47,592 bases of DNA from an uncultured bacterium (lineage in GTDB: Bacteria > Bacillota > Clostridia > Oscillospirales > Oscillospiraceae). The position numbers and the translations under genes are program-made. Where the stretch lies: the NCBI GenBank assembly GCA_946548895.1, contig CAMNQF010000029.1, positions 1-47,592 of the forward strand, read 5' to 3'. Below, in pieces: positions 16,800-34,492 of the stretch; the stretch's first letter is position 1, and each line of letters begins with the position of its first letter. Below the pieces are notes generated by a model. It worked only from the letters and a program-made list of their open reading frames with translations. It had not been told where the DNA came from and ran no database searches.

Positions 16800-18356
16800 T
16801 CATTTGCAGTTCAAGTACCGAATGATCTTGAGCAGAAGCTGAATATTCAAAACGGAGTCCATATCGGAGAGATCAAGATGGAGCTTTTCCTCAATGCGCT
16901 TAATCCGATACGCGACGCTGTTGCGGTGGAGGAACAGGGCCTGCGCGGTGGCCGCCATGGACATACCGCTGTCTATGTAGGTGGTGAGCAGTTCAAGGTC
17001 GTTTCTGCCGTTGGCGCGGTTTGCCTTATAAAAGCTGATGATCCTTCCGGGCAGCAGGGAAAACAAGTCGATCTGCCGGTCACAGATTTCCAGCATATGA
17101 TACATGGTGTAGTCCTTATAGAAAAAGACGTTCCCGCTTCCACAGTTCGGGCCCGACAGGCGCTTCCCCAGCCGGAGGGCGGCGCAGGCCTGGGTATAGG
17201 CCGCCTGGCATCCCGCCAGGGTGCGAAACTCCTGGCTCAGGCCGCAGTTGGCGTTGTAGGTGCGCAGGGTCGCGCTGAAGCTGGAGCGGGTCTGCGGGCT
17301 GTCGCAGCAAAAGGCGTCGGTGGATTTGAGCATATAGAGCTCTTCGCCATTGATGAAAATATGTTCCTTCGGCAGCTTCTGGCGCAGGTGAGAGATTAGA
17401 AATTCTGCCTGGGGCCTGGAAAAGCGCTTGAAGTCGATGACATAGACCAGATAGTCCTGCTGGTAGGGGATGTTGAGGGCGGTGGCGCGGTCGGCAATCT
17501 CCTCGGGTTCGGTGATCGTCCCATCCAGCAGCCCCCGGAGGAATATCTCGTCCAAATTGTTGCAATTGTCGCTCTGATCCATGTGCAGAGCCACATACGC
17601 CTCCAGCCGCTCAAAGAAATATTGCAGCAAATCCTGTTCGCCCTGCGTGGGGGCCTCGCCGGTGGCCACCATGGCCGCGGAGCAGTTCCGATGCCCGTTA
17701 TGGAAAAAGTGGCGGATATAGAAAGCGCATCCGGACAGGGTGTTGTCCTCCAAAATGCGCAGCCGGGGATGGAGCTCCGGCGAACCAAGCAGATTGTGCC
17801 TGAGCAGGTTGCGCACCACGTCCTGAGTGAAGTACCGCCGGTCGATCAGATTTTTCAGAAACGGGTTTTGAATCGGCCGGCCTTTGGAATACGCCTTGAT
17901 GTTAAAGGCCGCGTCCCAAAAGATCAGCAGACCCGAGAACGCGGGTCCCCCAACGTCGATAACTTCCTGAAGGCTGCCCGCGCACGCGGCCTGCTCCAGG
18001 TTGATCGCCCATTGGAAGGTGCGGGTGAACATCTCCTGAACGCTGTTGAACACCTGGGTGAGGGGATAGCTGTTCGGAATCAGAATCAGCGGCAGGCCGC
18101 ACTCCGCGGCCTCGGACCAGGCGGAGCCGCCGGTGACAACCACACACTGGGGGCGGAACTCCTCCGCCGGCCCGGCGCTCAGGAATCGCTCTATATCCCG
18201 CCGTTCGGCGACATAGAGGGCGGAGGGCTGGCAGGAACAGCCCGGGGCGGGGAGCAGCTTGACGCTGTCGAATCGGAGCGCCGCGCCCTCTGGGCCAGCT
18301 GCGGCAGGGGAAAAAGGCGCCAGGGCATCCAGCACCATTGGAATTGTAAATGTCAT
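16800..18356 (-). CDS. PucR/CdaR-family transcriptional regulator
   Basis: The 518-residue protein ends in the PucR-type helix-turn-helix: DSGMSMAATAQALFLHRNS, then VAYRIKRIEEKLHLDLSD, the usual place and sequence for this family. The middle part (about 280-400) resembles the CdaR GGDEF-like domain, and the N-terminal ~130 residues resemble the purine-catabolism sensory part (VAERRDIERFL...VVTGGSAWSEAA). Such proteins usually activate nearby catabolic genes in response to a small carboxylate or purine. It is transcribed away from the acyl-CoA ligase, 210 bases apart, so control of the island to its right is likely. The ATG at 18356 follows a GGGGGA site; an upstream in-frame ATG lacks one. 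Confidence 0.85.
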   Translation of the reverse strand: MTFTIPMVLDALAPFSPAAAGPEGAALRFDSVKLLPAPGCSCQPSALYVAERRDIERFLSAGPAEEFRPQCVVVTGGSAWSEAAECGLPLILIPNSYPLTQVFNSVQEMFTRTFQWAINLEQAACAGSLQEVIDVGGPAFSGLLIFWDAAFNIKAYSKGRPIQNPFLKNLIDRRYFTQDVVRNLLRHNLLGSPELHPRLRILEDNTLSGCAFYIRHFFHNGHRNCSAAMVATGEAPTQGEQDLLQYFFERLEAYVALHMDQSDNCNNLDEIFLRGLLDGTITEPEEIADRATALNIPYQQDYLVYVIDFKRFSRPQAEFLISHLRQKLPKEHIFINGEELYMLKSTDAFCCDSPQTRSSFSATLRTYNANCGLSQEFRTLAGCQAAYTQACAALRLGKRLSGPNCGSGNVFFYKDYTMYHMLEICDRQIDLFSLLPGRIISFYKANRANGRNDLELLTTYIDSGMSMAATAQALFLHRNSVAYRIKRIEEKLHLDLSDMDSVLNIQLLLKIIRYLNCK

Positions 18357-18566
18357 AATATCCCCCGTTTCGCAAATGATATAGCAGGCGCACTGGAAAC
18401 TCGGTAAACGGTTTTCAGCGCGGGCTTTGTCCAAGGATTCATGCGCGCCGACAATAATATAACATATTTTTTGCTAAATTTCATCCCTTTTAAAATTTTT
18501 ATGCCAACCAGATGTTTCCGCCGCGGCGCGGGAAGGAATCCACCTGTGGAAAGGAGTGGTTTTGAC
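18357..18566. promoter_or_regulatory. Divergent control region of the catabolic island
   Basis: The 210 bases between the regulator and the ligase are AT-rich in the middle (around 18455-18505), unlike the genes on each side. TTGCTA and TTTTAAAAT are present but not in good spacing, so I cannot place a promoter firmly. This is where a PucR-type activator would be expected to bind. Confidence 0.45.
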
Positions 18567-20096
18567 GTGAATTTTGCGCAGTTTCTTGAGACCAGCGCCC
18601 TGCGCTACCCGGACAAGACGGCGATGGCCATGAAGGAACGAAGGCTGACCTACCGGGAGCTGGAGGACCGCGTCCGGCGGCTGTCTGGCGCGCTGTCCGC
18701 GATGGGGTACCGGCCGGGGGACCGAATCGCCCTGGCGGCCTGCAACTGCCTGGAATATCCCGAGATCGTCTTTGCCTGCGCCCGCCTGGGCGTCGCCGCC
18801 GTGCTGCTCAACTGGCGGCTGCCGTCCAGGGAGCTCGTGAGGCTTTTGGAGCACAACAGGGCGCAAGGGGTGATTTTGAAGCTGGCGGACCCGGAGCGGG
18901 AGCGCGGCCTCCGCGACGAGCTTGGCGGACGCATACCCGTATTTCATCTGGACGGGACGTCCGGGGGCCGTCCATATGAGGAGCTTTTGGCCGGGGAGCC
19001 CTCCAGCGGGCCCGCGGCCTGCCTGACGGAGGACCACATCCTGATGCACCTGCACACCAGCGGGACCACGGGCTCTCCCAAGCCCGTTCTGTACAGCCAC
19101 GGGAGTTTCTCCAAGCAGGTGCTGGCCTACCTGTACCACATGGAGGTGACCGCCTCCGCGGTCTGCCAGCAGATGACCCAGATGTTCCATTCTGCCTGCG
19201 TGGCCATGTTCGGGTGCCTGGCGGCGGGTGCCACCGTCATCGCGCTGGACCGCTTCCATATGGAGGAATACCTTTCCACCATCGAGCGCGAGCGCTCAAC
19301 CCGGCTGGCGCTGATTCCGTCGATCCTGCGCCAGATCATCGCCTATCCCCGCCTGAGCGATTATGACCTGAGCTGTGTGAAGGAGGTGGCCTACTCCACG
19401 GCCCCCATGCCGCCAAAGCTGATACAGGCGGCCATGAAGGTTCTTCCATGCAGGTATTACACCACCTACGGCATGACGGAGATGGGGCCGATCGTCACCG
19501 CCATGGGGGCGGCGGAGCACCGGCGGGAGGAACTGCTCAACTATGTGGGAAAGCCCATTATCGGCTGCGACGTAAAAATTGTGGCGAAGGACGGCTCCAT
19601 CTGTCCCCCCGGAACCACGGGGGAGATCGCCGTGCGCGGCTTCGGAATGATGCGGGGCTATCTGGACATGGAGCGGGAGACCAGGGCCGCAATCCGGGAT
19701 GGGTGGTTCTACACCGGGGACCTGGGCTGCCTGAGCGGGGATGGATATCTCTGCCTTCGGGGCAGGAGAAACCATATGATTATCACCGGAGGCGAAAATG
19801 TATACCCCTGCGAGGTCCAGAACGCGCTTCAAGCCGTGTGCGACGAGATCAGCGAGATCGCGGTATACGGCGTGCCCGACGACCGCTGGGGGGAGGCGGT
19901 GGTTGCCAGCGTGGTGTTGAGTCCGGGCGCGGATGTGGACGAGGAGGAGCTGCGCCGGCGCTGCCGCAGCCGCCTGGCCGGATACCAGATTCCCAAGCGC
20001 ATCTTCATTGAATCCGATCTGCCCCGCAATCAGGTTGGGAAGGTGCTCATCAAGGTACTGGTGGATCGGTATGCCCAGCGTATGTCGGAACAATGA
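18567..20096 (+). CDS. AMP-dependent acyl-CoA ligase
   Basis: The 509-residue product activates a carboxylic acid with ATP and CoA through an acyl-AMP. All adenylating-enzyme motifs are present: P-loop HTSGTTGSPKP (163-173), YTTYGMTEMGPIV (~298-310), the ATP-ribose Asp in GWFYTGDLG (~385), RRNHMIITGGENVYPCEV, and the A10 lysine in PRNQVGKVLIK near the end. It is closest in layout to medium-chain/CaiC-type ligases, but the substrate cannot be read. The GTG at 18567 is chosen for the AAGGAG ten bases before it; upstream residues do not belong to the family. It is the first forward gene of the island, divergent from the PucR-type regulator. Confidence 0.88.
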   Translation: MNFAQFLETSALRYPDKTAMAMKERRLTYRELEDRVRRLSGALSAMGYRPGDRIALAACNCLEYPEIVFACARLGVAAVLLNWRLPSRELVRLLEHNRAQGVILKLADPERERGLRDELGGRIPVFHLDGTSGGRPYEELLAGEPSSGPAACLTEDHILMHLHTSGTTGSPKPVLYSHGSFSKQVLAYLYHMEVTASAVCQQMTQMFHSACVAMFGCLAAGATVIALDRFHMEEYLSTIERERSTRLALIPSILRQIIAYPRLSDYDLSCVKEVAYSTAPMPPKLIQAAMKVLPCRYYTTYGMTEMGPIVTAMGAAEHRREELLNYVGKPIIGCDVKIVAKDGSICPPGTTGEIAVRGFGMMRGYLDMERETRAAIRDGWFYTGDLGCLSGDGYLCLRGRRNHMIITGGENVYPCEVQNALQAVCDEISEIAVYGVPDDRWGEAVVASVVLSPGADVDEEELRRRCRSRLAGYQIPKRIFIESDLPRNQVGKVLIKVLVDRYAQRMSEQ

Positions 20097-20339: not shown

Positions 20340-21569
20340 ATGGAGCATTACAAACCACTGACCGGGTTCAAAATTTTGGAGCTGGCCACATTTCTGGCGG
20401 CCCCGTCCTGTACAAAGCTTCTCTCCGATCTTGGCGCGGACGTTATCAAGGTGGAAAAGGAGTCGGGCGACACCTTCCGGCACTTTGGCCCCACATTCAA
20501 AATGCCCGCGCAGGAGGACCATAACCCGGCCTTTGACCTGATGAACGGCGGGAAGCGCTCCATCATCATCAACATGAAGAGCGAAGAGGGAATGAAAGCG
20601 TTTTTTGACCTTCTGGACAGCGCGGACGCCTTTGTCACCAACGTGCGCGAAGGCGCGCTCAAGCGCCTGGGGTGCGATTACGATTCCCTGAAGGACCGCT
20701 TCCCCAGGCTGGTTATGGCCCGGATCACCGCCTATGGCGATAAGGGGCCCCGCGCCGCGGAGCCGGGCTATGACGCCGCCGCTTTCTGGGCCGCTTCCGG
20801 CTTCCTTCTGGACCAGCGGATGATGGTCCCCGGCACTCCCAACTATCCGGTGTCCTCCCCGCAGGGCATGGGAGACGTATTTGCCGGTTCCCTGCTGGCC
20901 AACGGCATCCTCAGCGCCCTGCTGGCCCGGGAGAGGACCGGGAAAGGGGACTATATCACCTCGTCCATCTATGGCGCGGCGATTTGGGGCCTGGGCGTGA
21001 TGATTCTCTCCGACGAGGAGCACCATCAGTACACCTGGCCCAAGGGCCGCTACGACCCGGGCACGACGCCCTATCAGTGCAAGGACGGACGCTGGGTCGC
21101 CTACGTAATTCCCCAGCACGAGCGCTACTTCCCCGGCGTGATCAAGGCGTTCGGCGCGCTGGAATTTTTGGATGATCCCCGCTTCATCAAGGTCTGGGAC
21201 GCCAACCGGAACAAGGAAACCTATGTAAAGCGGTTTGAGGAGCTCGCGGCCCAGATGACGGCGGACGAGCTGTCCGCCAGGCTGCGGGAGCAGGATGTGC
21301 CCAACACCATCCTGAACACCTACCACGGGATCAATCAGGACGAGCAGGCCATCGTCAACGGATTCATCCAGGAGCACACCTTCCCCGACGGGGAGAAGTG
21401 CATGATGACGCTCCCTTCCGTCCGGTCCCGCAGCGCCGGAGATCCGCATACCACGGTGGGTCCGCTGCTGGCGGCGGACACCGTGGACGTGCTGCGTGAG
21501 CTGGGCTACTCCGACGAGCGGATTGAGGAGCTGGCCAAGAGCAGCGCGATCGGCGTACGCAAGTCCTGA
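20340..21569 (+). CDS. Class III (CaiB/BaiF) CoA-transferase, copy 1
   Basis: The 409-residue product moves CoA between carboxylates through an aspartyl-CoA thioester. The N-terminal fold LTGFKILELATFLAAPSC, then the VIKVEKESGD loop, leads to the catalytic Asp in EPGYDAAAFWAASG (D145). The C-terminal part has PNTILNTYHGINQDEQAIVNG and a final LRELGYSDERIEELAKS. Layout and sequence resemble the transferases paired with 2-hydroxyacyl-CoA dehydratases (FldA/HadA type), which fits the dehydratase genes 2.5 kb downstream. The ATG at 20340 follows AGAGGAGGA. A clear paralogue lies at 33305-34492. Confidence 0.9.
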   Translation: MEHYKPLTGFKILELATFLAAPSCTKLLSDLGADVIKVEKESGDTFRHFGPTFKMPAQEDHNPAFDLMNGGKRSIIINMKSEEGMKAFFDLLDSADAFVTNVREGALKRLGCDYDSLKDRFPRLVMARITAYGDKGPRAAEPGYDAAAFWAASGFLLDQRMMVPGTPNYPVSSPQGMGDVFAGSLLANGILSALLARERTGKGDYITSSIYGAAIWGLGVMILSDEEHHQYTWPKGRYDPGTTPYQCKDGRWVAYVIPQHERYFPGVIKAFGALEFLDDPRFIKVWDANRNKETYVKRFEELAAQMTADELSARLREQDVPNTILNTYHGINQDEQAIVNGFIQEHTFPDGEKCMMTLPSVRSRSAGDPHTTVGPLLAADTVDVLRELGYSDERIEELAKSSAIGVRKS

Positions 21570-21732: not shown

Positions 21733-23064
21733 ATGTCCCCCGAGATTATAAGCTTGATCGGCATTTTATTAGGACTGGTTTTCTTCATGGTGTGTGCCTG
21801 CTACGGCTGGAACATCATCATCCTGGGCATCGGAGCGTCGGTGATTACCGCCATATTCGGCGGACTGAACATTGTTGACGCGCTGACCACGCAGTATTCC
21901 GCCGGCTTTGTGAGCTTTTGGCAAAATTATATGCTGCTGTTCCTGGGCGGCGCCCTGTTCGCCCGGCTGATGACGGACTCCGGCGCGGCGTTCCGCATTG
22001 CCAGCGCCCTGTCGGGCGTGTGCCGCAAAGCCAAGAGCAAACGTGCGCAGAAAGTGCTGGCGGTTCTTACCCTGCCCATTATCAACGGCGTTTTGACCTA
22101 TGGCGGCATCACCTCGTTTCTGGTGGTGTTTCTGATGGTGGCCATTGCCCGGCAGCTGTTTGAGGAGCTGGATATCCCCTGGAAAATGTACGGCTGCGCC
22201 TGCCTGGGCTCCGCCACGTTCACTGCGGGTATGCTGCCCGGCTCCCCCGGCACCACCAACCTGATTCCCACCAGGTATCTGGGCACGACCCCCACCGCGG
22301 GCGCCACGCTGGGCATTCTGGCCACCCTGCTGTGTGTCACTCTGGGCGTGCTGTTCATTATCTGGGAGGTCACTAAAGCGGAGAAGAAGGGCGAGGGCTT
22401 CCTGCCCACTGGTCAGTCCATTGTCAAAGAGATTCTTCCCATGCCCGAAATTCCGGACTACAACATTCTGCGCTGCCTTGCCCCTTGCATCATCCTGCTG
22501 GTCAGCCTGAACGTGCTGAAGTGGAGCACCACCACCTCCCTGGCGCTGGGCTGCTTTTCCTGCATCGCGCTGTTCTTTAACGAGCTGCGGCCTAAGATAA
22601 AAGGGTCCGTCGCCGCCGGCCTCAGCAGCGGCATCATGACCCTGGCCCTGGTCTGCGGCGCCAACGGATTCGGCTCCGTGGTCGCCGCTGTCCCCGGCTA
22701 CGCCTTTGTGCTCGACGGCCTGATGAACATCCCCGGCCCCGCCGCGCTGCAGGTCTTTGTCTCCGTCAACATCGCCGCGGGCATCACCGGCTCCGCGCAG
22801 GGCGGCCTGGCGGTGTGCCTGTCCAACCTGGGCGAGCACTTCCTAAGCCTGGGCATCCCGGCCGGCGCTCTGCACCGCCTGTGCAGCTGCTCCGCCATCG
22901 GCCTGGACACCCTGCCCCACAGCGTGGGCGTCATCAACGCCGCCGGCGCGGCCAAGCTGACCCACAAGGAGATCTATTACTACTTCTTCATGATCACCGT
23001 GGTCATTACGATGATCTGCTCCCTGTTTGTCTGCCTGCTCATCTCTCTGGGCATCGGCGTTTAG
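21733..23064 (+). CDS. GntP-type carboxylate permease, copy 1
   Basis: The 443-residue protein has ~12 hydrophobic segments and matches the GntP superfamily (gluconate, hydroxybutyrate and related anion:proton symporters). Recognisable parts are the loop NGVLTYGGITSFLVVFLMVAIAR (~114-136), ATFTAGMLPGSPGTTNLIPT (~158-177), and the late SCSAIGLDTLPHSVGV (~386-401). Members that import D-3-hydroxybutyrate are common in acyl-CoA gene clusters, so a hydroxy- or short-chain carboxylate is the likely cargo. It lies 163 bases after the CoA-transferase with a clear GGAGGG site and is followed by two hairpins. Confidence 0.86.
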   Translation: MSPEIISLIGILLGLVFFMVCACYGWNIIILGIGASVITAIFGGLNIVDALTTQYSAGFVSFWQNYMLLFLGGALFARLMTDSGAAFRIASALSGVCRKAKSKRAQKVLAVLTLPIINGVLTYGGITSFLVVFLMVAIARQLFEELDIPWKMYGCACLGSATFTAGMLPGSPGTTNLIPTRYLGTTPTAGATLGILATLLCVTLGVLFIIWEVTKAEKKGEGFLPTGQSIVKEILPMPEIPDYNILRCLAPCIILLVSLNVLKWSTTTSLALGCFSCIALFFNELRPKIKGSVAAGLSSGIMTLALVCGANGFGSVVAAVPGYAFVLDGLMNIPGPAALQVFVSVNIAAGITGSAQGGLAVCLSNLGEHFLSLGIPAGALHRLCSCSAIGLDTLPHSVGVINAAGAAKLTHKEIYYYFFMITVVITMICSLFVCLLISLGIGV

Positions 23065-23122: not shown

Positions 23123-23134
23123 CCCTCAACACTT

Positions 23135-23210
23135 AGAAGCCGCGCCAATAGCCCCGGCACGCCTCTTTACGGCCAGATTGCCGCCCGCTCCGGCAATTGG
23201 CGCGGCTTCT
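23135..23210 (+). repeat. 15-bp perfect inverted repeat before the dehydratase activator
   Basis: AGAAGCCGCGCCAAT (23135-23149) and ATTGGCGCGGCTTCT (23196-23210) are exact complements around 46 bases. The element ends 26 bases before the activator start. It could be an operator or an mRNA structure that separates expression of the permease from that of the dehydratase. Confidence 0.8.
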
Positions 23211-23236
23211 CACTTTTACGCGGTTTGGAGGACGCA

Positions 23237-24028
23237 ATGCTTACGCTTGGAATCGATATTGGTTCCGCCACCAGCAAGGTCGCGGTGATGCGCGGGGGAA
23301 CGGTTGTGCTGGCCACCGCGCTGCGCAGGGCTGGGATCGGCTCCGACGGCCCCGGCGCCGTGCTGCGGGACGCCCTGCGGCTGGCGGGCTGCCAAATGGA
23401 GGATATCGCGGCCGTGGCGGCCACGGGATACGGAAGAAACATGATGGAAGAGGCCGACTACCGCATCAGCGAACTGAGCTGCCACGGAAGGGGGGCCCAT
23501 TTTCTGGCCCCGGAGACCCGGACCCTGATTGATGTGGGCGGGCAGGACGCCAAAGTGATCCGCCTGGACGGCAGGGGGCGGATTATGGAGTTTATGATGA
23601 ACGACAAATGCGCGGCCGGCACCGGCCGGTTTTTGGAGGTCATGGCCCAGGTGCTGGGCTGCGGCATTCAGGAATTCAGCGGCCTGGCCGAGGGCCAGGA
23701 GGCCGCCCCCATCAGCAGTACCTGCGCGGTCTTTGCCGAGACGGAGGTCATCTCGCGCCTGGCTGCGGGCACGCCCCGGGGCAGCATCGCCGCGGGCATA
23801 AACCTATCGATTGCCAAACGGGTAGGCGGGCTGGCCATGCGGATGGGCGTCGTCCCGGCGGTTATGATGAGCGGCGGCGTGGCCCAAAACGCCTCCCTCG
23901 TGGATATGCTGGGCCGTGAATTGGGGGCGGACATCCTCGTAGCCAAGGAGTGCCAGTTCTGCGGCGCGCTGGGCGCCGCCCTGCTGGCATGGGAAAAAAC
24001 GCGAGCCTCGGGCAGGAAAGAGCCGTAG
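23237..24028 (+). CDS. 2-hydroxyacyl-CoA dehydratase activator (HgdC-like ATPase)
   Basis: The 263-residue product is the archerase/activator that uses ATP hydrolysis to push one low-potential electron into the dehydratase. The ASKHA nucleotide-binding fold shows GIDIGSATSKVAVM at the N-terminus and IDVGGQDAKVI (~98-108). The two cysteines that hold the shared [4Fe-4S] cluster across the homodimer are C125 (MNDKCAAGTGRF) and C163 (ISSTCAVFAETE), matching the spacing in HgdC. Length is typical. A single activator of this size points to a dehydratase rather than to the four-subunit benzoyl-CoA reductase. ATG 23237 follows TTTGGAGG. The dehydratase subunits come next. Confidence 0.93.
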   Translation: MLTLGIDIGSATSKVAVMRGGTVVLATALRRAGIGSDGPGAVLRDALRLAGCQMEDIAAVAATGYGRNMMEEADYRISELSCHGRGAHFLAPETRTLIDVGGQDAKVIRLDGRGRIMEFMMNDKCAAGTGRFLEVMAQVLGCGIQEFSGLAEGQEAAPISSTCAVFAETEVISRLAAGTPRGSIAAGINLSIAKRVGGLAMRMGVVPAVMMSGGVAQNASLVDMLGRELGADILVAKECQFCGALGAALLAWEKTRASGRKEP

Positions 24029-24029
24029 G

Positions 24030-25393: not shown

Positions 25394-26507
25394 CGCGCTG
25401 CAAAAATTGGAGGAAACCGCCCGCTCCCCCAAGCGGGCCATGGAGGCGTACCGGCAGGCGGGCAGGCCGGTGGCCGGGTGCATCCCGGAGTATACGCCGG
25501 AGGTTATGGTTCACGCCGCTGGCTTTATCCCCTTCGGATTGTGGGGGGGCGAGACCACGATCATGCTTGCCGACAGCTACATTCCCACCTTTGCCTGCTC
25601 CCTGGTGCGCTCCTGCGCGGAGTACGGGCTGAATGGGACGTATCGGGGGCTGTCCTTCATCATCGCGCCCATATTGTGCGACGCGCTGAAGGGCTGCGTG
25701 CAGACCTTCCGTGTGGCGGTCAAGGACCCGCCGGTCCTGCCGTTTTCCCTGCCGCAAAACCGAACCCTGCCCAGCGCGGCCGCGTTTACCGCGCAGGAGT
25801 ACCGGGCGTTGGGAGAAAAAATCCAGAAGCTCACCGGCGCCGGGATCTCCGGGCAGGCCATGCGGCGGTCCATCCGAATCTACAACGAGCACAGCCGGGC
25901 TATGCGGGACTTTGACCGGGCCGCCGCCGAGCACACCGACGTGATCGGGGCCCGGGCCCGCCAGGCCGTATTCAAAAGCGCCTGGTTCATGGAAAAGGAG
26001 GAGCACACCGGGCTGGTGCGGCAGATCACGCGGGCGCTTGAGGAGCGCCCGGCCTGCCGGAAAAACCCCGCGCGGGTGGTCCTGACGGGCGTAAGCGCCG
26101 GCTCGGCGGCGCTCATGGAGCTGCTGGAGGAGGAAGGGTTCGACGTGGTGGGCGACCACGTCTATCAGGACAGCTGGACCTATCTCCATCCCATTCGCGA
26201 GGACTTGGAGGACCCGGTCATGGCCCTGGCGGAGCACTGGATTCAGGTGGGCGGGAGCTGTGTGGCCCACGAGCGCCGGCGCAGCCGTTCCGCCGCCGTC
26301 TTAAAGCTCGCCAAGGAGCGGGAGGCCGGCGCGGTGGTGCTGTGCCTGATGAAATTCTGCGACCCGGAGGAGTACGAGGCTCCCCTGATGCTGGCGGAAT
26401 TGAAGAAGTCCTGCCCCACCCTGACGCTGGACATAGACCAGAACAGCGACAACCTGGAGCAGCTTCGCACAAAAATCCAGACCTTCCGGGATGTGCTGGA
26501 TTCCTGA
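25383..26507 (+). CDS. 2-hydroxyacyl-CoA dehydratase, smaller subunit (HgdB/FldC/LcdB-like)
   Basis: The 374-residue product has the length of HgdB/LcdB/FldC subunits. Conserved parts are VAGCIPEYTPEVMVHAAGF (C33), SYIPTFACSLVRSCAEYGL (C72, C78), APILCDALKG near residue 100 and MKFCDPEEYEAP near 323. Together with the larger subunit it forms the heterodimer that holds the active-site [4Fe-4S] clusters. Its ATG overlaps the upstream gene by 11 bases behind AAGGAGGA, so the two are translated together. The substrate (lactoyl, isocaproyl, aryl-lactyl or other) cannot be chosen from sequence by eye. Confidence 0.9.
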   Translation: MLNDALQKLEETARSPKRAMEAYRQAGRPVAGCIPEYTPEVMVHAAGFIPFGLWGGETTIMLADSYIPTFACSLVRSCAEYGLNGTYRGLSFIIAPILCDALKGCVQTFRVAVKDPPVLPFSLPQNRTLPSAAAFTAQEYRALGEKIQKLTGAGISGQAMRRSIRIYNEHSRAMRDFDRAAAEHTDVIGARARQAVFKSAWFMEKEEHTGLVRQITRALEERPACRKNPARVVLTGVSAGSAALMELLEEEGFDVVGDHVYQDSWTYLHPIREDLEDPVMALAEHWIQVGGSCVAHERRRSRSAAVLKLAKEREAGAVVLCLMKFCDPEEYEAPLMLAELKKSCPTLTLDIDQNSDNLEQLRTKIQTFRDVLDS

Positions 26508-26548: not shown

Positions 26549-27532
26549 ATGAAAATCGAGACAAAATTTACAAAAATGTTTGGCATTGAAAAGCCCATCA
26601 TCCAGGGCGGTATGCAGCACATCGGCGTACCCGCGTTCGCGTCCCTCTTCTCCAACGCCGGCGGCATGGGTACCATCAACATCACCTGCTATAAGAGCCC
26701 CGAGGAGTTCGCGGACGCCGTGGCGGAGATGAACGAGCTGACGGACAAGCCCTGGATTGTGAACATCTCGCTGGCGCCCGACCTGACCAAGGGGGATGAG
26801 ATATTCAAGTATATCGACGTGTGCGCCCGGGGAAAAGTGGCGGCCATCGAATTTGCCGCCGCCAGCCCGGAGATGTTCATGCCGGCCTGCAAGGAGGCGG
26901 GCATCAAGATCATCCACAAGAGCCCGAACGCCCACGTGGCAAAGCGCATGGAGGAAAAAGGCGCCGATGTGGTCACCATCGCCGGCTACGAGGTGGCTGG
27001 CCACCCCAGCAGGGACGGGATCGGCACCTTCGTCATCGCCAATAAGGTGGCCTCTATCTGCAGCTGCCCGGTGATGGCCGCCGGCGGCGTGGCGGACGGC
27101 AGGGGCCTGGCCGCGGCACTGGCCCTGGGTGCCAGCGGCGTGGTGGTGGGCACCCGTTTTGTCGCCACCACCGAGTGCCCCATCTCCTACAACCACAAGA
27201 AATGGATCGTGGACCACTCCGAGCGGGACACTGTGCTGATTCAGCAGAGCATCAATAATATGATGCGCGTGGCCGATAATACGGCGGCAAAGCTGACCCA
27301 GGAGATGGAGAAGCGGGGGACCACCCTTCAGGAGCTGATGTCCGTGATCTCCGGCAAGCGGAGCAAAGAGGGCTACGCGGACGGCAACGTGGACGGCTCC
27401 ATCTACGCGGTGGGCCCGGTGATCGGCCTCATCAACAGCATGGAGGACATTAAGCCGGTGGCGCAGGTCATGGACGAGATGGTGGACGACGCCTATGCCA
27501 TCATTCAGTCGCTGAAGCAGAGCTTTTCGTAA
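26549..27532 (+). CDS. Nitronate monooxygenase/FabK-like FMN protein
   Basis: The 327-residue product is a TIM-barrel flavoprotein of the nitronate monooxygenase/enoyl-ACP reductase II family. It shows IEKPIIQGGMQHIG at the start, VVTIAGYEVAGHPSRDG (the Gly-rich phosphate-side loop, ~145-161), and the FMN phosphate site AAGGVADGRGLAAALALG followed by VVVGTRF. In a CoA-thioester cluster it may act as an NADH-linked enoyl-thioester reductase or a detoxifying oxidase; neither is shown by sequence. It follows the dehydratase by 41 bases and precedes a crotonase by 18. A broken relative lies at 20119-20280. Confidence 0.82.
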   Translation: MKIETKFTKMFGIEKPIIQGGMQHIGVPAFASLFSNAGGMGTINITCYKSPEEFADAVAEMNELTDKPWIVNISLAPDLTKGDEIFKYIDVCARGKVAAIEFAAASPEMFMPACKEAGIKIIHKSPNAHVAKRMEEKGADVVTIAGYEVAGHPSRDGIGTFVIANKVASICSCPVMAAGGVADGRGLAAALALGASGVVVGTRFVATTECPISYNHKKWIVDHSERDTVLIQQSINNMMRVADNTAAKLTQEMEKRGTTLQELMSVISGKRSKEGYADGNVDGSIYAVGPVIGLINSMEDIKPVAQVMDEMVDDAYAIIQSLKQSFS

Positions 27533-27550: not shown

Positions 27551-28336
27551 ATGAGCGAGATCATTCAGATTCAGCGGCAGGGGCGCGTAGCGCTGGTGAC
27601 GCACAACAGGCCCGAGGCCAGCAACGCCTTCTCCTATGAATCCTATGGGGCGATCCGGGACGCCATGCGGACGCTGGGCGGCGACCCGGACGTGGGCGCC
27701 ATCGTCATCACCGGCGCTGGAAAGCATTTCTCCGCAGGCGGTGATATTGTGCGCTTCCGCCAGCTCATTGAGAGCGGTGAATTTCTGGCGGCGGAGAATA
27801 TCCTCTACGCCGGCGAGATGTCCGCGGCTATCCGCCGCTGCCCCAAGCCGGTGATCGCTATGGTCAACGGCGTGGCGACCGGGGCCGGGTTAAGCTGTGC
27901 GCTGGCCTGCGACTTCCGGGTGGCCGCGCCCTCCTCCAAGCTGATTATGGCCTTCGTCAACATGGGCCTGTGCGGAGACACGGGGAGCCTCTATTTCCTG
28001 CCCAAGCTGGCGGGCATTCCCGAGGCGCAGCGCATGATGATGACCGGCGAGCCCGTCTCCGGCGAAGAGGCGTACCGAATTGGCCTGGTCTCCATCCTGG
28101 CGCAGGAGGGCGGCCTGGCGGAGGCTGCCATGGCGTTTGCCGACAAGCTGGCCAACAAATCCACCGCGGCCATCGCGGAGCAGAAGGCCATTTCCAACCG
28201 ATACTTCTTCCAGGATCTGGACGCCTATTTTCAGGATGAGGCCGCGGCAATGGCCGCGCTGTCCCGCAAGCCGGACTTCAAGGCGGCGGTGTACGCCTTC
28301 CTGGAGAAGAAAAAGCCCGTGTTTAACCAGCCGTGA
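27551..28336 (+). CDS. Crotonase-fold protein, PaaG-like isomerase type
   Basis: The 261-residue product has the crotonase fold, with oxyanion-hole parts HFSAGGD (59-65) and GVATGAGLSC (107-116). The two glutamates of true enoyl-CoA hydratases are absent: the first position is in GAGLSCALACD and the second reads FVNMGLCGDTGS. An aspartate (D143) in the GLxxDxG pattern is instead kept, as in PaaG, the 1,2-epoxyphenylacetyl-CoA isomerase, and in related delta3-delta2-enoyl-CoA isomerases. Double-bond isomerisation or another rearrangement is thus more likely than hydration. Substrate unknown. Confidence 0.8.
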   Translation: MSEIIQIQRQGRVALVTHNRPEASNAFSYESYGAIRDAMRTLGGDPDVGAIVITGAGKHFSAGGDIVRFRQLIESGEFLAAENILYAGEMSAAIRRCPKPVIAMVNGVATGAGLSCALACDFRVAAPSSKLIMAFVNMGLCGDTGSLYFLPKLAGIPEAQRMMMTGEPVSGEEAYRIGLVSILAQEGGLAEAAMAFADKLANKSTAAIAEQKAISNRYFFQDLDAYFQDEAAAMAALSRKPDFKAAVYAFLEKKKPVFNQP

Positions 28337-28389: not shown

Positions 28390-29538
28390 ATGGAATTTAA
28401 ACTGACGGAAGACCAATTGATGTGCCAGAACAGCGCGCGGGAATTCGCCCAGCGGTTCATCACCAAGGAGCGCATGGAGCAGGCGGACCGGGAGCGCCGG
28501 GTACCTGACGATATCTTCCAGGGGATGTGCGACGCCGGATTCGCGGGGCTGATCTTCGACCCGAAGTACGGCGGCGTCGGGCTTGGCATGGACAGCTATG
28601 TGCTGACCCTGGAGCAGCTGGCCGGCAAGGACCCCTCGATGTCCGCCGTGCTGGTCATCAGCGTGATGTTTTTGTATGCCATCAATCTGTACGGAACGGA
28701 GGAACAGAAAGCCAAATATCTGCCCGGCGGGATCGAGGGCAAATTCCGCGGGTCGTTCGCCTTTACCGAGGCGGGCACCGGCTCCGACCCCAAGCAGCTG
28801 ACCACCACCTATAAGGAGGAGGAGGACTGCTTCGTCATCAACGGCGTGAAGCGGTTCATCAGCAACGCGGGCTACGAGGGGCCTATTATTCTCTTTGCCA
28901 ATGACTCCAACGGGGAAAATACCACCGCTTTCGTATTTGACAAATTTGGCCCGGGCTACAGCCTGTCTACGGCCTGGGACACCATGACCTGCCATGCCAG
29001 CCCCGTGTACGACATCTTCCTGGACGAGGTGCGCATCCCCAAGGACAGCGTTTTGGGCGGCATCGGGGGCGGTTTCAAAATTCTGAAGGGAGTCATCGCT
29101 TTCAGCAAGATGGGCGTGATGGCCCAGTGTGTGGGCAATATGGGCCATGCCTATGAGCTGGCGGTCAAGTACGCCAAGGAAAAGCTGCACCGCGGCAAGC
29201 CCATCAGCAAATTCCCCACCATCCAGACCAAGATCGCGGAAATCGCCGCCATGCATCAGAGCTGCCAGCTGCTGGTGTACCGCTTGGCGGAGCACCTCAA
29301 CGACGCCAAGCCGGAAGATATGGGGGCCGTCATCGCCGAATCCGGCATGGTGAAAGGCCACGTGGCGGACACTGGCTTTATCTGCTGCCAGAAGGCCATG
29401 AGCGTGCTGGGCGCTTACGGCGTGTGCGGCGAGTACGAGATTGAGCGCTGTGTCAGGGAGTCGCTGCAATATCCCTGCGTAGAGGGCGTGGGCGACATCC
29501 AGCGCATCATGTGCGGCAGCTATGCGCTGCGCCCCTGA
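28390..29538 (+). CDS. Acyl-CoA dehydrogenase, copy 1
   Basis: The 382-residue product is an FAD acyl-CoA dehydrogenase of usual length. It has the flavin/substrate loop SFAFTEAGTGSDPKQL (~126-141), INGVKRFISNAGY, and near the C-terminus CVEGVGDIQRIM, which places the catalytic base glutamate in the standard position (VEG). The TxxxD pattern suggests a short- or branched-chain class. It may run toward reduction of the enoyl-CoA made by the dehydratase, in which case it needs electron-transfer flavoprotein; no etfAB is in this window. Confidence 0.9.
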   Translation: MEFKLTEDQLMCQNSAREFAQRFITKERMEQADRERRVPDDIFQGMCDAGFAGLIFDPKYGGVGLGMDSYVLTLEQLAGKDPSMSAVLVISVMFLYAINLYGTEEQKAKYLPGGIEGKFRGSFAFTEAGTGSDPKQLTTTYKEEEDCFVINGVKRFISNAGYEGPIILFANDSNGENTTAFVFDKFGPGYSLSTAWDTMTCHASPVYDIFLDEVRIPKDSVLGGIGGGFKILKGVIAFSKMGVMAQCVGNMGHAYELAVKYAKEKLHRGKPISKFPTIQTKIAEIAAMHQSCQLLVYRLAEHLNDAKPEDMGAVIAESGMVKGHVADTGFICCQKAMSVLGAYGVCGEYEIERCVRESLQYPCVEGVGDIQRIMCGSYALRP

Positions 29539-29591: not shown

Positions 29592-30932
29592 ATGGAATGG
29601 ATCAGCCTGTTGGGCATCATAGCCGCCATCGCGCTGTTTGCCGCGCTCTGTTTCAAAGGGATTCCCGTCACGGTCAGCGCTCCGGCGTTGAGCATCATGC
29701 TGTGGCTGTTCAGCGCCGCCGCCGGGGACGGCCTCTCCTTTGACGGCGCGGTGAGGATATTTTCGTCCGGGGCGGCTTCAGCCATTGAGCGCTACCTGCT
29801 GCTGTTTATGTTCAGCGCGTCGTTCGGCGGCCTGCTGTGCGAGGTGGGCATCGCGTCCGCCATAGGGGCCTTTTTCAGCGGCCTGATTATGAGAGCCCCT
29901 AAACGCTGGCAAAAGCTGCTGGCGGTGGCCGTGGTTCCCCTGATTAACGCGATCCTGACCTACTCTGGGGTGAGCCTCTTCGTGGTGGTATTCGCCGTGG
30001 TGGCCATTGCCCGGGATCTGTTCCGCCGGATGGACGTCCCCTGGCACCTGTATTCGATGAGCATGATCGGTTCGGCGACCTTTACTTCCGGGCTGCTGCC
30101 GGGCTCCCCTTCCCTGTCCAATTTGGTGCCCATGGAGTATCTCGGGACGACCTCTCTGGCCGCCCCGGTGCTTTCCCTGATCCTGTCCGCAGTCAGCCTT
30201 GCGCTTGGCGCGGGCTATATGGCGTTCGCTCTGTGGCGGACCGAGCGGGCGGGCGAGGGCTTTTTGCCCACCGGCGAGGGGATTTCCCAGGTGGAGTTCC
30301 GCACACAGGCGGGCGAGCGGAAAATTTGTGTGCCGCTGGCGTTTCTGCCGATGCTCTCCCCCGTGATATTCATCAATGCGGCCGGGCTTTCGGTGGAGCT
30401 GTCTTTGCTGTTAAGTAATCTCCTGATCCTGATCCTGTATCGAAAGCACCTGAGCTTGGAGCGCGTAAAAAATGGGCTGGTTTCCGGGCTGACGGCGGGA
30501 ATTTCCCCGGCCATCTCCCTGGGTGTCATGATGGGGTTTGGGAGTATGTTGACCAGCTCGTCCGGGTTCCGCCCCATACTGCGCCTGGTATACGGCGTGC
30601 CGGGTCCCATGGTGCTCAAGGCCATCGTCATGGTGTCTGTGACCTCCTTCCTGCTGGGAAACGCGAACGCCGGCATCACCACCAGCCTGGAGGCCATGGG
30701 GCCGGATGCCTTGCTGCTGTCCGGCGTCTCCCCCGAGGCGCTGCACCGCGCGGTGTCGATGGCAAGCTTGTTCGGGGCCTCCCCCCACTCCAGCGCGCTG
30801 TGCAACTCCCTGCTGGTGGCCAAGCTGAACCACAGGGTGAGCTACCGGCACTATTTCGTGATCGGGATCGTGAACACGGCAATCCTGTCCGTCGTGGCCG
30901 TGGTCCTTATCCAGGCGGGAATTACATATTAG
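29592..30932 (+). CDS. GntP-type carboxylate permease, copy 2
   Basis: The 446-residue, ~12-helix protein is a paralogue of the permease at 21733-23064. Matching parts are NAILTYSGVSLFVVVFAVVA (copy 1: NGVLTYGGITSFLVVFLMVA), SATFTSGLLPGSPSLSNLVP and, late in the protein, MASLFGASPHSSALCNS, where copy 1 has SCSAIGLDTLPHSVGVIN. The differences in the last motif suggest another cargo or direction. It separates the first set of enzymes from the second set (crotonase, dehydrogenase, transferase). Confidence 0.84.
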   Translation: MEWISLLGIIAAIALFAALCFKGIPVTVSAPALSIMLWLFSAAAGDGLSFDGAVRIFSSGAASAIERYLLLFMFSASFGGLLCEVGIASAIGAFFSGLIMRAPKRWQKLLAVAVVPLINAILTYSGVSLFVVVFAVVAIARDLFRRMDVPWHLYSMSMIGSATFTSGLLPGSPSLSNLVPMEYLGTTSLAAPVLSLILSAVSLALGAGYMAFALWRTERAGEGFLPTGEGISQVEFRTQAGERKICVPLAFLPMLSPVIFINAAGLSVELSLLLSNLLILILYRKHLSLERVKNGLVSGLTAGISPAISLGVMMGFGSMLTSSSGFRPILRLVYGVPGPMVLKAIVMVSVTSFLLGNANAGITTSLEAMGPDALLLSGVSPEALHRAVSMASLFGASPHSSALCNSLLVAKLNHRVSYRHYFVIGIVNTAILSVVAVVLIQAGITY

Positions 30933-31019: not shown

Positions 31020-31799
31020 ATGACGTATCAAAATTATCTTGTGGACGTGGGCCCGGACAAAATCGCTCTGCTCACGGTCAACCGGCCTGAAAAGCGCAAC
31101 GCCATGAGTGCCGAGGCGTGGCGGGAGCTGGAACACTTTTTCGCCTGGGCCGACCAGGCGCCGGAGGTGGGCATGGTCATCCTCACCGGCGCTGGGAATA
31201 AGGCGTTTATCGCCGGCGCCGACCTGAACAGCCTGGCCGGGCGCCGGCCCGCGGACTGCTTGAAAAACGCGGCTCAAAGCGCCCTGCGCCGGATCGAGCG
31301 GTGCGCCAAGCCCGTCATCGCCGCAGTCAACAGCTATGCTTTCGGCGGCGGCTGTGAAACGGCTATCGCCTGTGACTTTCGCGTGGCGTCGGAAAACGCG
31401 GTCTTTGCCTTGCCGGAGACGGGGCTGGGCATCATCCCCGGGGCGGGTGGAACCCAGCGTCTGAGCCGGCTGATCGGCCTGGGCAGGGCAAAAGACATGG
31501 TTCTGCTGGGCCGCAGCGTCTCCGGGCCGGAAGCGGTGCGGATCGGCCTGGCCACCGCCTGCGTGCCCCAGGAAAAGCTGCTGGAAGAGGCCAGGCAGAT
31601 GGCGGCGCAGATGCTAAAGCGCGGGCCGCTGGCCCTTCAAATGGCAAAGCATCTGCTGCAGGCTTCGCTGTCCTCCAGCGAGGACGTGGGGCTGCTGATG
31701 GAAAACATGGCCTTTGGCGCGCTGTGCGGCACCCAGGACAAGCGGGAGGGCGTGATGTCGTTTTTGGAAAAACGCAACCCCAGCTATCAGGGGAAATAA
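31020..31799 (+). CDS. Enoyl-CoA hydratase (canonical crotonase)
   Basis: The 259-residue product has both catalytic glutamates of enoyl-CoA hydratase: E113 in AFGGGCETAIACD and E133 in FALPETGLGIIPGAGGTQRL. The oxyanion-hole segment is AFIAGADLNSL (62-72). It should add water to a 2-enoyl-CoA or carry out the reverse. The ATG at 31020 follows GGAGGAGG; a TTG just before is also possible, and a longer in-frame start lacks a proper site. It is followed 25 bases later by a second acyl-CoA dehydrogenase. Confidence 0.9.
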   Translation: MTYQNYLVDVGPDKIALLTVNRPEKRNAMSAEAWRELEHFFAWADQAPEVGMVILTGAGNKAFIAGADLNSLAGRRPADCLKNAAQSALRRIERCAKPVIAAVNSYAFGGGCETAIACDFRVASENAVFALPETGLGIIPGAGGTQRLSRLIGLGRAKDMVLLGRSVSGPEAVRIGLATACVPQEKLLEEARQMAAQMLKRGPLALQMAKHLLQASLSSSEDVGLLMENMAFGALCGTQDKREGVMSFLEKRNPSYQGK

Positions 31800-31824: not shown

Positions 31825-33042
31825 ATGCTGGATTTAAATGGAACCGGCCTGGTCATGCTGGAAGAGGACAAAGAACTCATCTCCATGGTCCACGACTTTG
31901 TGCTGAAGGAGGTCCGCCCCCGGGCGGCGGAGCACGACCGGTCCGGCGAGCTGGACTGGGAGTCCTATAACAAAGCCTTTGAGATGGGGCTTATCTGCGC
32001 GGACCTGCCCGCCGAATACGGCGGCCAGGGCATGAGCGCCGTCACCAGCGCCTGGATCCGGGAGGAATTGATGTATGGCGACGCCGGCTTCGGCCTCACG
32101 TGCGGCACCAACAATCTGGGGATCAAGCCGGTGATGCTGGCCGGTACGGAGGAGCAGAAGCGCTGGTGCGTGGAGGTGCTCACCAGTGACAAACCCGGCC
32201 GGGATCCCAGATGGCCCCAGAAGCGCAGCGGCTTCGCCGCCTTTGCCCTGACGGAGCCGGACGCGGGCTCTGACGCCGGGGCCTGCCGCACCACGGCGGT
32301 AAAGACCGCCGACGGCAGCGAGTACATCCTGAACGGCCGCAAGTGCTTCATCACCAACGCCTGCTACGCCGATTTTATGTGCGTGGTGGCCTCCATAGAC
32401 CGCAGCCTGGGCTATAAAGGGCTGACCATGTTCCTGGTGGACGCCCACCTCCCCGGAGTTTCCATCGGCAAGCATGAGGACAAAATGGGCATACGCCAGT
32501 CCGCCACCTGCGACGTGATCTTTGAGGATGTGCACATTCCCGCCTCCGCCCTGGTGGGCAAGGAGGGCGAAGGCTTCAAAATCGCCATGAAAACGCTGGA
32601 GCACGGCAGGGCCAGCATCGGGGCGGGCTGCGTAGGCATCATGCGCGCCGCCCTGGAGGAGGCCGCCCGATACGCCCAGGTGCGCAAAACCATGGGAAAA
32701 CCCATCTGGAAAAATCAAGGTATCAGCTTCAAGCTGGCCAATATGCAGATCGACATCGAGACCAGCCGCGCCATCGGCATGAAGGTAGCCGCCCTGGTGG
32801 ACGCCGGTTCCCGTGAAGCCGCCGAGCTGGGGCCCATTGCGAAGTGCTATTGCACCGACGCGCTGAACCGCGTTGTGACCGAGGCGGTACAGATTTTGGG
32901 CGGCTACGGCTATATGCGGGACTACCCGGTGGAAAAACTGATGCGGGACGCGAAGATATTCCAGATCTTTGAGGGCACCAACGAGGTGCAGCGCATGATT
33001 ATTGGCAACGGCGTCGTCGCAAAATACAAGGTCAAGGAGTGA
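31825..33042 (+). CDS. Acyl-CoA dehydrogenase, copy 2
   Basis: The 405-residue product is a second FAD acyl-CoA dehydrogenase. It has FALTEPDAGSDAG (~140-152), LNGRKCFITNA, and the catalytic glutamate in FEGTNEVQRMI near the end. It differs from copy 1 by about a dozen extra residues (SDKPGRDPRWPQKR, ~121-134) just before the flavin loop. Sequence is only distantly like copy 1, so the two probably use different acyl groups rather than being recent duplicates. A strong AAGGAGGA precedes ATG. Confidence 0.9.
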   Translation: MLDLNGTGLVMLEEDKELISMVHDFVLKEVRPRAAEHDRSGELDWESYNKAFEMGLICADLPAEYGGQGMSAVTSAWIREELMYGDAGFGLTCGTNNLGIKPVMLAGTEEQKRWCVEVLTSDKPGRDPRWPQKRSGFAAFALTEPDAGSDAGACRTTAVKTADGSEYILNGRKCFITNACYADFMCVVASIDRSLGYKGLTMFLVDAHLPGVSIGKHEDKMGIRQSATCDVIFEDVHIPASALVGKEGEGFKIAMKTLEHGRASIGAGCVGIMRAALEEAARYAQVRKTMGKPIWKNQGISFKLANMQIDIETSRAIGMKVAALVDAGSREAAELGPIAKCYCTDALNRVVTEAVQILGGYGYMRDYPVEKLMRDAKIFQIFEGTNEVQRMIIGNGVVAKYKVKE

Positions 33043-33304
33043 CGGGTTTCCCCTTTGACCGGCAGAATCATTTCCGGCGAGCCGGAGCGGATGGCCATAT
33101 TGTCTGCTCAGTTCCGCCATCCGGCCTTTCCCGGCGGATCCTATGCCCTCCAGGGTTGGAAAAACAGAGGAAACAGCGCCCGCTTCCGCATGGCCCGCCC
33201 GGAGACAGTACAGTGATTCTGGACACCGGCCTGATGGGCCGGCACGAGTGTGCACGGGCCTGAACCACTGTCCGCCCCTATTCTGATAAAACGAGGTCGC
33301 TATT
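33043..33304. other. Intergenic stretch before the second CoA-transferase
   Basis: About 260 bases without a gene I can support. A short hairpin CCGGCC-TGAT-GGGCCGG lies at ~33224-33241. No promoter is evident. Confidence 0.45.
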
Positions 33305-34492
33305 ATGAAGCCCTTAACCGGAATCACTGTCATTGAGCTGTCTACATACATTGCGGCGCCCTCCTGCGGGCGGGTGCTGGCCACCCAGGGCGCCCGCGTC
33401 ATCAAGGTGGAGTCGCCCGCCGGAGATGAGGAACGCCGGTTTGGCCCTACGCTGTGGAATCCCGCCACCGATGAGGAAAATCCAATTTATGACACTCTGA
33501 ATGGCGGAAAAGAGGCCGTCTGCCTGAATTTAAAGGATCCGAAGATGATGGAGCGCTTCCACCAGCTGTTGAGCCACGCGGATGTCTTTGTCACCAACCA
33601 GCGCCCCAAGGCGCTCCGGCGTATGGGGCTGGACTACGAATCGCTGAAAACGCGCTATCCCCGCATGGTGTACGCCGTGCTGCTGGGCTATGGGGAGCGC
33701 GGCCCAAAGGCCGATTTCCCAGGTTTTGACGCCATTGCCATGTTTGCCACCGGAGGATTCATCCAGGATATGATGGTGGACGCGCCCGGGGCCTATCCCA
33801 CCTATCTGCCGATGGGGGTCGGCGACATGGTCTGCGGCACCATTCTGGCGGGAGGGATTGGGACGGCCCTGTTCAACCGGGAGCGGACCGGGGCTGGGGA
33901 CTATGTGTCCATCTCCCTGCACGGCGCGGCCATGTGGATGTTCAGCATTATGTCCACAGGCACTCAATTCGGCTACCAGTGGCCCAGAAGCCGGTATCAG
34001 GGCGGACCCATGGGCGTGCCGTACAAGACAAGAGACGGTCAGTGGATACTGCCCGTGGTGAACGAGTACGAGCGCTACTGGGCGGATTTCTGCCACGCGG
34101 TCGGCGCGGACGGCATTGTGGACGATCCCCGCTTCTGTACCAAAAAAGCCACCTTCGACCCGAAAAACCGGGAGGACTGTATCCGGTATTTTGAGGCGTG
34201 CATCGCAAAGCTGGAGTGCGCCGAGCTGATCGCCAGGCTGGAGCGGGCCGACATCATTGCCAGCAAGCTGGCTCATTTCAAGGACAATCATCAGAATGAA
34301 CAGGCCCTGGTCAACGGGTATATGAGCCCCATAACCTATCCCAACGGGGATCAAATCACTCTGGCGCAGCCTCCGCTGCACTTCGGGAGCCTGGCCGTGC
34401 CCAGCGCACAGGCCGCCGCTCCCATTGGGGCGGATAACGATAAAATTTTCATAAACGGGACCTGTACGCTGGGCGGCCCTGGGGAGCTTTGA
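33305..34492 (+). CDS. Class III (CaiB/BaiF) CoA-transferase, copy 2
   Basis: The 395-residue product is a clear paralogue of copy 1 (20340-21569). It keeps ITVIELSTYIAAPSCGR at the N-terminus, VIKVESPAGDE, and the catalytic aspartate D142 in FPGFDAIAMFATGG. Its last ~25 residues (NDKIFINGTCTLGGPGEL) do not resemble the LRELGYSDERIEEL helix that ends copy 1 and most of the family, so the C-terminus has been lost or replaced. The core should still fold. It closes the island and is followed by a terminator 170 bases on. Confidence 0.86.
   Translation: MKPLTGITVIELSTYIAAPSCGRVLATQGARVIKVESPAGDEERRFGPTLWNPATDEENPIYDTLNGGKEAVCLNLKDPKMMERFHQLLSHADVFVTNQRPKALRRMGLDYESLKTRYPRMVYAVLLGYGERGPKADFPGFDAIAMFATGGFIQDMMVDAPGAYPTYLPMGVGDMVCGTILAGGIGTALFNRERTGAGDYVSISLHGAAMWMFSIMSTGTQFGYQWPRSRYQGGPMGVPYKTRDGQWILPVVNEYERYWADFCHAVGADGIVDDPRFCTKKATFDPKNREDCIRYFEACIAKLECAELIARLERADIIASKLAHFKDNHQNEQALVNGYMSPITYPNGDQITLAQPPLHFGSLAVPSAQAAAPIGADNDKIFINGTCTLGGPGEL

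Follow-up and report, generated by a model that had tools for sequence, protein, structure and literature searches.

Does a run of catabolic genes in which four families each occur twice around a single 2-hydroxyacyl-coenzyme A (CoA) dehydratase represent a copied set, two neighbouring pathways, or one pathway built from unlike members of the same families? The question is raised by the 47,592-nt contig CAMNQF010000029.1 (contig C29, in its entirety referred to as the window) of an uncultured Oscillospiraceae bacterium (assembly GCA_946548895.1; 3.81 Mb, 116 contigs, 96% complete). The window holds an island of about 16 kb, in which a PucR-type regulator gene on the minus strand faces a run of plus-strand genes that extends to 34492 and comprises, in this order, an acyl-CoA ligase (open reading frame from 18441), a family III CoA-transferase (CaiB1), a GntP-like permease (Perm1), an activase, the dehydratase subunits DhA and DhB, an NMO/FabK-like flavoenzyme, a crotonase (Crot1), an acyl-CoA dehydrogenase (ACAD1), and then Perm2, Crot2, ACAD2 and CaiB2. 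Every gene class named in the first-pass annotation was found in the order and on the strands given there, with strong profile matches for all but the permeases, and its central claim, a CoA-thioester island centred on a 2-hydroxyacyl-CoA dehydratase and matching no standard operon, held among the relatives examined (57 DhA loci). With about even confidence, we read the island as serving one CoA-thioester pathway, partly reductive and linked to PucR, for a single 2-hydroxy acid or a small family of such acids.

The dehydratase and its activase

The activase (component A; 23237..24028, +) resembles HgdC and HadI: it scored 253 bits with TIGR00241 (E = 2e-75) against a cut-off of 125, aligned to HadI (4eht, 6e-75) and HgdC (1hux), and carries both cysteine motifs (NDKCAAGTGRF and STCAVFAE). 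The HadB-like alpha subunit DhA (24119..25393, +; HGD-D 1.2e-61; 3o3m_A 7e-97) and the HadC-like beta subunit DhB (25383..26507, +; HGD-D 8e-68; 3o3m_B 1e-83), whose genes overlap by 11 bp, both exceed the PF06050 cut-off. Over 396 aligned residues DhA shares Cys97, Cys133 and Cys363 with HadB (3o3m_A), and the cysteine pattern of DhB likewise aligns to 3o3m; particular cysteines of the pair presumably act as cluster ligands. Together, the activase and DhA/DhB make up a putative 2-hydroxyacyl-CoA dehydratase system. In such systems, as outlined in the relevant part of a review (PMC11574389), the activase hands an electron to component D, which converts 2-hydroxyacyl-CoA to 2-enoyl-CoA.

Comparison with characterised dehydratases, as proposed in the first-pass annotation, gave a divided answer: the best matches among NCBIfam models and solved structures were HadB and HadC, yet the scores (DhA 380.5 bits, DhB 342.2 bits) reach about half of the equivalog cut-offs (750 and 700 bits, respectively). 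A different assignment would place the pair and its activase in the benzoyl-CoA reductase class, as a ring reductase, and would make the island a route for degradation of an aromatic or cyclic acid; the proteins belong to the same superfamily, and by eye distant clusters that contain CaiB, crotonases, ligase or ACAD resemble ring-degradation sets. We regard this as very improbable, as HadBC (3o3m, 7e-97 and 1e-83) matched far better than BzdO (7e-26) or MbdN (2e-29), the BCR/bzd models for benzoyl-CoA reductase stayed at 83-154 bits against cut-offs of 313-578, and the run contains one activase gene in place of the two different activase-type subunits that mark class I benzoyl-CoA reductases.

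At E ≤ 1e-60, DhA was detected in 34 of 250 genomes of the family, its own included, with a best identity elsewhere of 48%; at E ≤ 1e-40, a DhA-like gene was found in 8 of 42 genomes of the genus, again counting its own (best other 50%), and named genomes yielded 44 loci (best 49%). With at most 50% identity to the relatives found, the dehydratase probably represents a divergent branch. In a tree of 56 rows, whose bootstrap had yet to converge and in which long branches could be wrongly placed, DhA lies on a long branch with ten sequences (support 98/88), apart from HadB; the members of this clade come from Synergistaceae, Acidaminococcales or Acidaminococcaceae, Fusibacter, Oscillospiraceae and other Bacillota. 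Several of their loci carry thiolase, 3-hydroxyacyl-CoA dehydrogenase-like or MaoC-like genes (assigned by eye), and that of a Synergistaceae bacterium (L048) carries a mandelate-racemase-family gene, which hints that such dehydratases may feed beta-oxidation, beyond reduction.

Gene neighbourhoods were compared by blastp (1e-5) to the window proteins within 12 kb of 57 DhA loci, some of them present in two collections; 9 kb on both sides was available for only 24 of the 57, so that absences are weak for the rest. Relatives of the activase (37/57), CaiB (44/57), crotonase (27/57), ACAD (16/57) and ligase (11/57) accompany DhA relatives, and an NMO relative occurs once (L048). At least two CaiB genes were present in four loci and at least two crotonases in two, and no locus of the 57 had at least two ACADs, a GntP-like permease or a PucR gene. 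The gene-order comparison suggested in the first-pass annotation thus returned no relative locus that keeps the full order, and a full-order orthologue was rejected on these loci and on the absence of any other DhA above 50% identity in the 42 genus genomes.

More distant pairs, dehydratase- or benzoyl-CoA-reductase-like and accompanied by activase, CaiB or ligase, and ACADs, were seen (L087 8767-12260, L177, L178 and L179) in Bacillus sp. B15-48 and on plasmids of Rhodococcus ruber, Sphingopyxis macrogoltabida and Azoarcus KH32C; the plasmid clusters combine one or two ACADs with a dehydratase-family pair, an activase and CaiB. An aerobic lifestyle is usual in several of these genera. The genome of the window itself has three further CoA-thioester clusters on contigs C5 and C1 (L166, L167, L169); in one of them CaiB and a ligase accompany a PucR-like gene and a second HGD-D pair, and the others read ACAD-CaiB-ligase-ACAD and ACAD-ligase-crotonase.

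Paired genes and their counterparts in other genomes

CaiB1 (20340..21569, +; CoA_transf_3 1.2e-82) and CaiB2 (33305..34492, +; CoA_transf_3 2.8e-79) both keep the catalytic Asp position, and the catalytic Glu position is kept in the diverged ACAD1 (28390..29538, +; Acyl-CoA_dh domains; 4l1f 6e-58) as well as in the AcrC/Bcd-like ACAD2 (31825..33042, +; AcrC model 2e-101, 339 of 640 bits). Crot2 (31020..31799, +; ECH_1 3e-68), of enoyl-CoA hydratase type, has both catalytic Glu, at positions that we take to correspond to those of rat enoyl-CoA hydratase, as do 28 of 35 crotonases collected; Crot1 (27551..28336, +; ECH_1 4.5e-50), isomerase-like by alignment, carries Ser and Phe at these positions, followed by a loop Asp, presumably at the position of the catalytic residue of PaaG-type isomerases. 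The same pattern, a loop Asp and no Glu pair, is common to all three NMO-adjacent crotonases from other loci (L126, L127, L131).

Neither Perm1 (21733..23064, +) nor Perm2 (29592..30932, +) matched a Pfam or NCBIfam model at E ≤ 1, and hence neither matched a curated GntP profile; three permease relatives (L126, L127, L131) likewise matched no NCBIfam model at that threshold. The GntP type assigned in the first-pass annotation is kept here as a label because homologues of Perm1 on plasmids are so named (9 of 15 matches listed, of 101 records; 28-32% identity) and because its predicted fold (AlphaFold2 model from an alignment of five sequences, mean pLDDT 78) resembles MleN and INDY-type carriers (Foldseek E 3e-7 and 1e-6; TM 0.5-0.6; root-mean-square deviation 7.5-8.1). 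GntP-like relatives adjoin a 3-hydroxybutyrate dehydrogenase gene and, on the Fusobacteria ZRK30 plasmid described below, genes for a CoA-transferase, a hydratase, MaoC, an ACAD and EtfBA, and by analogy the neighbours of such relatives favour a small hydroxy-monocarboxylate as the probable cargo.

The paired genes share 42% (CaiB1/CaiB2), 35% (Perm1/Perm2), 33% (Crot1/Crot2) and 26% (ACAD1/ACAD2) identity. In a ranking of the homologues gathered from the loci read, the partner in the window comes second of 53 for CaiB1 and fourth of 53 for CaiB2; among 18 ACADs it comes 16th and 18th, among 34 crotonases 10th and 31st, and among four permeases second in both cases. Every paired gene is closer to some gene of another genome than to its partner, by small margins for CaiB1 (44 vs 42%) and Perm2 (34.2 vs 34.0%). 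Because of these low identities and closer relatives elsewhere, the doubling does not reflect recent duplication; the island brings together distinct members of each family, with no recently copied set. Tandem duplication of the set was rejected on the 26-42% identities and on a search of the genome with ACAD2, in which ACAD1 was the weakest of eight other ACAD matches. Described as doubled in the first-pass annotation, the island is so by family; as a matter of recent copying it is not, and Crot1 lacks both Glu kept by Crot2.

A counterpart of much of the island was found in G143, a genome of the same family and another genus, of which 40 kb of the 51-kb contig C47 were read (L126/L127). It encodes relatives of CaiB2 (72% identity), the NMO-like protein (72%), Crot1 (61%), Crot2 (67%) and ACAD2 (87%); with Ffh at 77% between the two genomes, ACAD2 lies above this value and the other four below. 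The stretch also encodes relatives of the ligase (37%), CaiB1 (44%), PucR (26%) and a GntP-like permease (41%), together with a second CaiB-ACAD-NMO-crotonase group, and no dehydratase or activase relative was present in these 40 kb. Gene order and strands differ from those of the island, with the NMO and Crot1 relatives adjacent and in the same order as in the window. Because G143 groups NMO and Crot1 with Crot2, ACAD2 and CaiB2, the natural unit crosses the two halves drawn in the first-pass annotation, and the second set (29592-34492) can hardly be a repeat of the first. The island combines a dehydratase block with a CaiB-NMO-crotonase-ACAD block.

ACAD2 was detected at E ≤ 1e-135 in 2 of 400 family genomes (its own and G143), and the NMO-like protein at E ≤ 1e-75 in 5 of 250 (its own, G143, G208, G070 and G050) and in 1 of 394 genomes of the order (its own). 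In G050 (L131), a crotonase, an ACAD, NMO, a GntP-like permease and CaiB occur together. The literature searched (open-access papers only) yielded no substrate assigned to such CaiB-ACAD-NMO-crotonase units. An Amidohydrolase_2 family gene lies inside the G143 module (L126 10925-11719). Stretches read of G208 and G070 (L128, L129, L130) show repeated ligase, CaiB, PucR and NMO genes, one of them with an EtfB-like gene by eye, and no dehydratase relative; on a plasmid of Fusobacteria ZRK30 (L175 4390-11598), genes for a CoA-transferase, an enoyl-CoA hydratase, a GntP permease, MaoC, an ACAD and EtfBA stand in a row.

The island might also encode two neighbouring pathways, the dehydratase set acting on a 2-hydroxy acid, and Perm2, Crot2, ACAD2 and CaiB2 acting on a 3-hydroxy or 2-enoic acid, for which no dehydratase is required. 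This is possible, if clearly the less probable explanation: it would accommodate two permeases and two CaiBs, neither pair being recent copies, the relatives of CaiB2, Crot2 and ACAD2 that occur in G143 with no dehydratase in the 40 kb read, and the gaps and inverted repeats inside the run; however, the G143 block includes NMO and Crot1, which the window places in the first set, and a single regulator faces the run. That regulator, of PucR type (16800..18434, -; HTH_30 9e-19, GGDEF_2 8e-10), is divergent from the run and likely starts at an ATG at 18356-18354 (read by eye), and profile searches of the window proteins recognised no regulator inside the run.

Flavoenzyme, ligase, transcription and setting

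The NMO/FabK-like flavin mononucleotide (FMN) enzyme (26549..27532, +; NMO 1e-47) keeps the AGH motif and scored 210.9 bits with the FabK enoyl-acyl carrier protein reductase model (TIGR03151), below the cut-off of 453.1. IpdC, in the part of PMC5380842 that describes it, is a flavoenzyme of FabK type whose substrate is a CoA thioester, and it provides a precedent. The acyl-CoA ligase (18567..20096, +; AMP-binding 1.1e-76) carries a TSGTTGSPK motif; its start was placed by eye at a GTG at 18567, preferred for its ribosome-binding site. Between the ligase and CaiB1 lies a relict NMO-like fragment (about 20147-20198, +; 82% identity over 17 residues, and 82% over 49 bp of DNA to 26939-26987); gene loss has therefore occurred inside the island.

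Profile searches recognised no electron-transferring flavoprotein (Etf), 3-hydroxyacyl-CoA dehydrogenase or thiolase among the run genes, and the genome showed a single Etf pair, encoded on contig C22 beside another ACAD. These results bear on a further explanation, a plain Had/Fld-type Stickland operon with extra genes, which would convert an amino acid via the 2-hydroxy acid and 2-enoyl-CoA to the saturated acid. The activase and CaiB are parts of the Had/Fld type, ACAD2 is AcrC-like, and the matches of DhA/DhB to HadB/HadC are the best among NCBIfam models and solved structures. We nevertheless consider it unlikely, as DhA/DhB reach about half of the HadB/HadC cut-offs, DhA groups away from HadB, the run encodes neither a 2-hydroxyacid dehydrogenase nor Etf, and the isomerase-like and hydratase crotonases, the FMN enzyme and the ligase would be left unexplained.

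From DhA to ACAD2 the genes are tightly spaced (-11 to 87 bp). Two inverted repeats could act as terminators, one, also a possible attenuator, in the gap between Perm1 and the activase (23128..23217, +; 26-nt arms, 85% complementary) and a perfect one after CaiB2 (34661..34693, +; 16-nt arms, 100% complementary); neither was listed as a terminator by a consensus scan, which returned 21 terminator-like sites against a mean of 16.1 (sd 4.3) in shuffles and thus no clear excess. Promoter-like sites numbered 10 against 5.2 (sd 2.6) in shuffles, and the promoter scan placed none on the plus strand just upstream of the ligase.

The island is bordered on the left by the gene for ribosomal protein L10 (15062-15592) and on the right by an XRE-type gene, followed by two tRNA-Ser genes. 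GC content at third codon positions is 0.75-0.86 in the island and 0.89-0.93 in five core genes, in line with acquisition; because of this difference and the presence of a DhA-like gene in few genomes of the genus, the island is considered accessory. Contamination of the contig was judged unlikely, GDH on the same contig being 98% identical to that of a genus member. Among the genus members compared, no clean empty site was obtained; gene order near GDH, the L10 gene and the XRE gene (13147-16012, 35041-35654) is shuffled among them, and in G280 the L10 region is inverted and adjoins the XRE gene, with no island between.

Candidate pathway

In the single pathway that we favour, PucR would control the accessory catabolic island. 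The acid would enter via the GntP-like permeases and be loaded with CoA by the ligase or a family III CoA-transferase, and the DhA/DhB iron-sulfur pair, primed by the ATP-driven activase, would remove the alpha-hydroxyl to give 2-enoyl-CoA. Isomerase-like Crot1 and the FabK/NMO-like flavoenzyme could then shift or reduce double bonds, hydratase-type Crot2 could add or remove a beta-hydroxyl, and the two ACADs could reduce or oxidise the alpha-beta bond via the one Etf pair of the genome, with CoA recovered from the product acid by the CaiB transferases. The genes, their catalytic residues and the make-up of the modules are established by the analysis; from the gene content we infer the nature of the substrate, the order and direction of the steps, the control by PucR and the use of the Etf pair on C22.

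Several points weigh against this scheme. No gene of the run fixes the substrate, and two permeases and two distinct CaiBs would also fit two substrates; with neither thiolase nor 3-hydroxyacyl-CoA dehydrogenase in the run, nothing there accounts for an oxidative end. For the NMO-like enzyme, a role is proposed purely by analogy with IpdC, and at 96% completeness a second Etf could be missing from the assembly. Gaps of 243, 163, 172 and 262 bp follow the ligase, CaiB1, Perm1 and ACAD2; given these, the two inverted repeats and the decayed NMO fragment, a single transcript for the run is only what we infer.

A more specific version, in which a polyhydroxylated and perhaps alicyclic 2-hydroxy acid, for example quinate, would lose its hydroxyls step by step, seems quite improbable. 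Here the dehydratase would take the alpha-hydroxyl, Crot1 would walk the double bond and Crot2 remove beta-hydroxyls, the NMO-like enzyme and the ACADs would reduce between rounds, and the two CaiBs would shuttle CoA among intermediates. No stepwise dehydroxylation pathway for 2-hydroxyacyl-CoA dehydratases was found in the literature searched, and PMC7230068, in the portion concerned, treats quinic acid and cyclohexane carboxylic acid separately, which neither supports nor refutes the idea.

If the single-pathway reading is correct, the role of 2-hydroxyacyl-CoA dehydratases extends beyond amino-acid reduction, and a divergent member of the family operates alongside two ACADs, a FabK-like flavoenzyme and an isomerase-like crotonase. 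Other Oscillospiraceae genomes, G143 and G050 among them, also contain CaiB-ACAD-NMO-crotonase units. The island is of moderate interest in that the question of its substrate is testable: it is a defined gene set, and G143 offers a counterpart without the dehydratase for testing the step of each gene.

Comparison with known systems

Judged from its sequence, every enzyme belongs to a known kind, and similar mixtures exist; neither the exact combination nor a close relative of this dehydratase turned up elsewhere in the material searched, and no paper describing such an island was found in the open-access literature searched. One of the nearest characterised systems is that of HadBC/HadI, the (R)-2-hydroxyisocaproyl-CoA dehydratase of Clostridioides difficile (3o3m, 4eht), which shares with the island an activase and two HGD-D subunits with aligned cluster cysteines, whereas DhA/DhB fall under the NCBIfam HadB/HadC cut-offs and DhA occupies a separate long branch. 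In Had/Fld operons, CaiB lies beside the activase and subunit genes, and the ACAD has its own Etf inside the operon; in the island, CaiB1 is present with a permease between it and the activase, and the run has no Etf of its own for its ACADs.

Within the genus, a locus of G279 (L084/L173) is similar in its DhA (49%), DhB (40%) and activase; it also has several CaiB genes, of which two are pieces, along with one ACAD, a ligase and a flavoprotein. Its flavoprotein, however, is of the Oxidored_FMN (old yellow enzyme) type and not NMO, and the stretch read has no crotonase, second ACAD or GntP-like permease. As for the flavoenzyme, the relevant part of PMC5380842 describes IpdC as a FabK-like enzyme whose substrate is a ring CoA thioester and after which a crotonase acts, a pair to which NMO and Crot1 can be likened by description, although IpdC belongs to steroid ring catabolism in mycolic-acid bacteria and some proteobacteria. 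The plasmid pAZKH of Azoarcus KH32C (L179) differs from the island in that its DhA relative is only 24% identical, short-chain dehydrogenases/reductases are present, and no GntP, NMO or crotonase is annotated in the stretch shown; like the island, it has two ACADs, which flank a dehydratase-family pair, an activase and CaiB, so that the statement of the first-pass annotation that known systems contain at most one dehydrogenase does not extend to this distant cluster.

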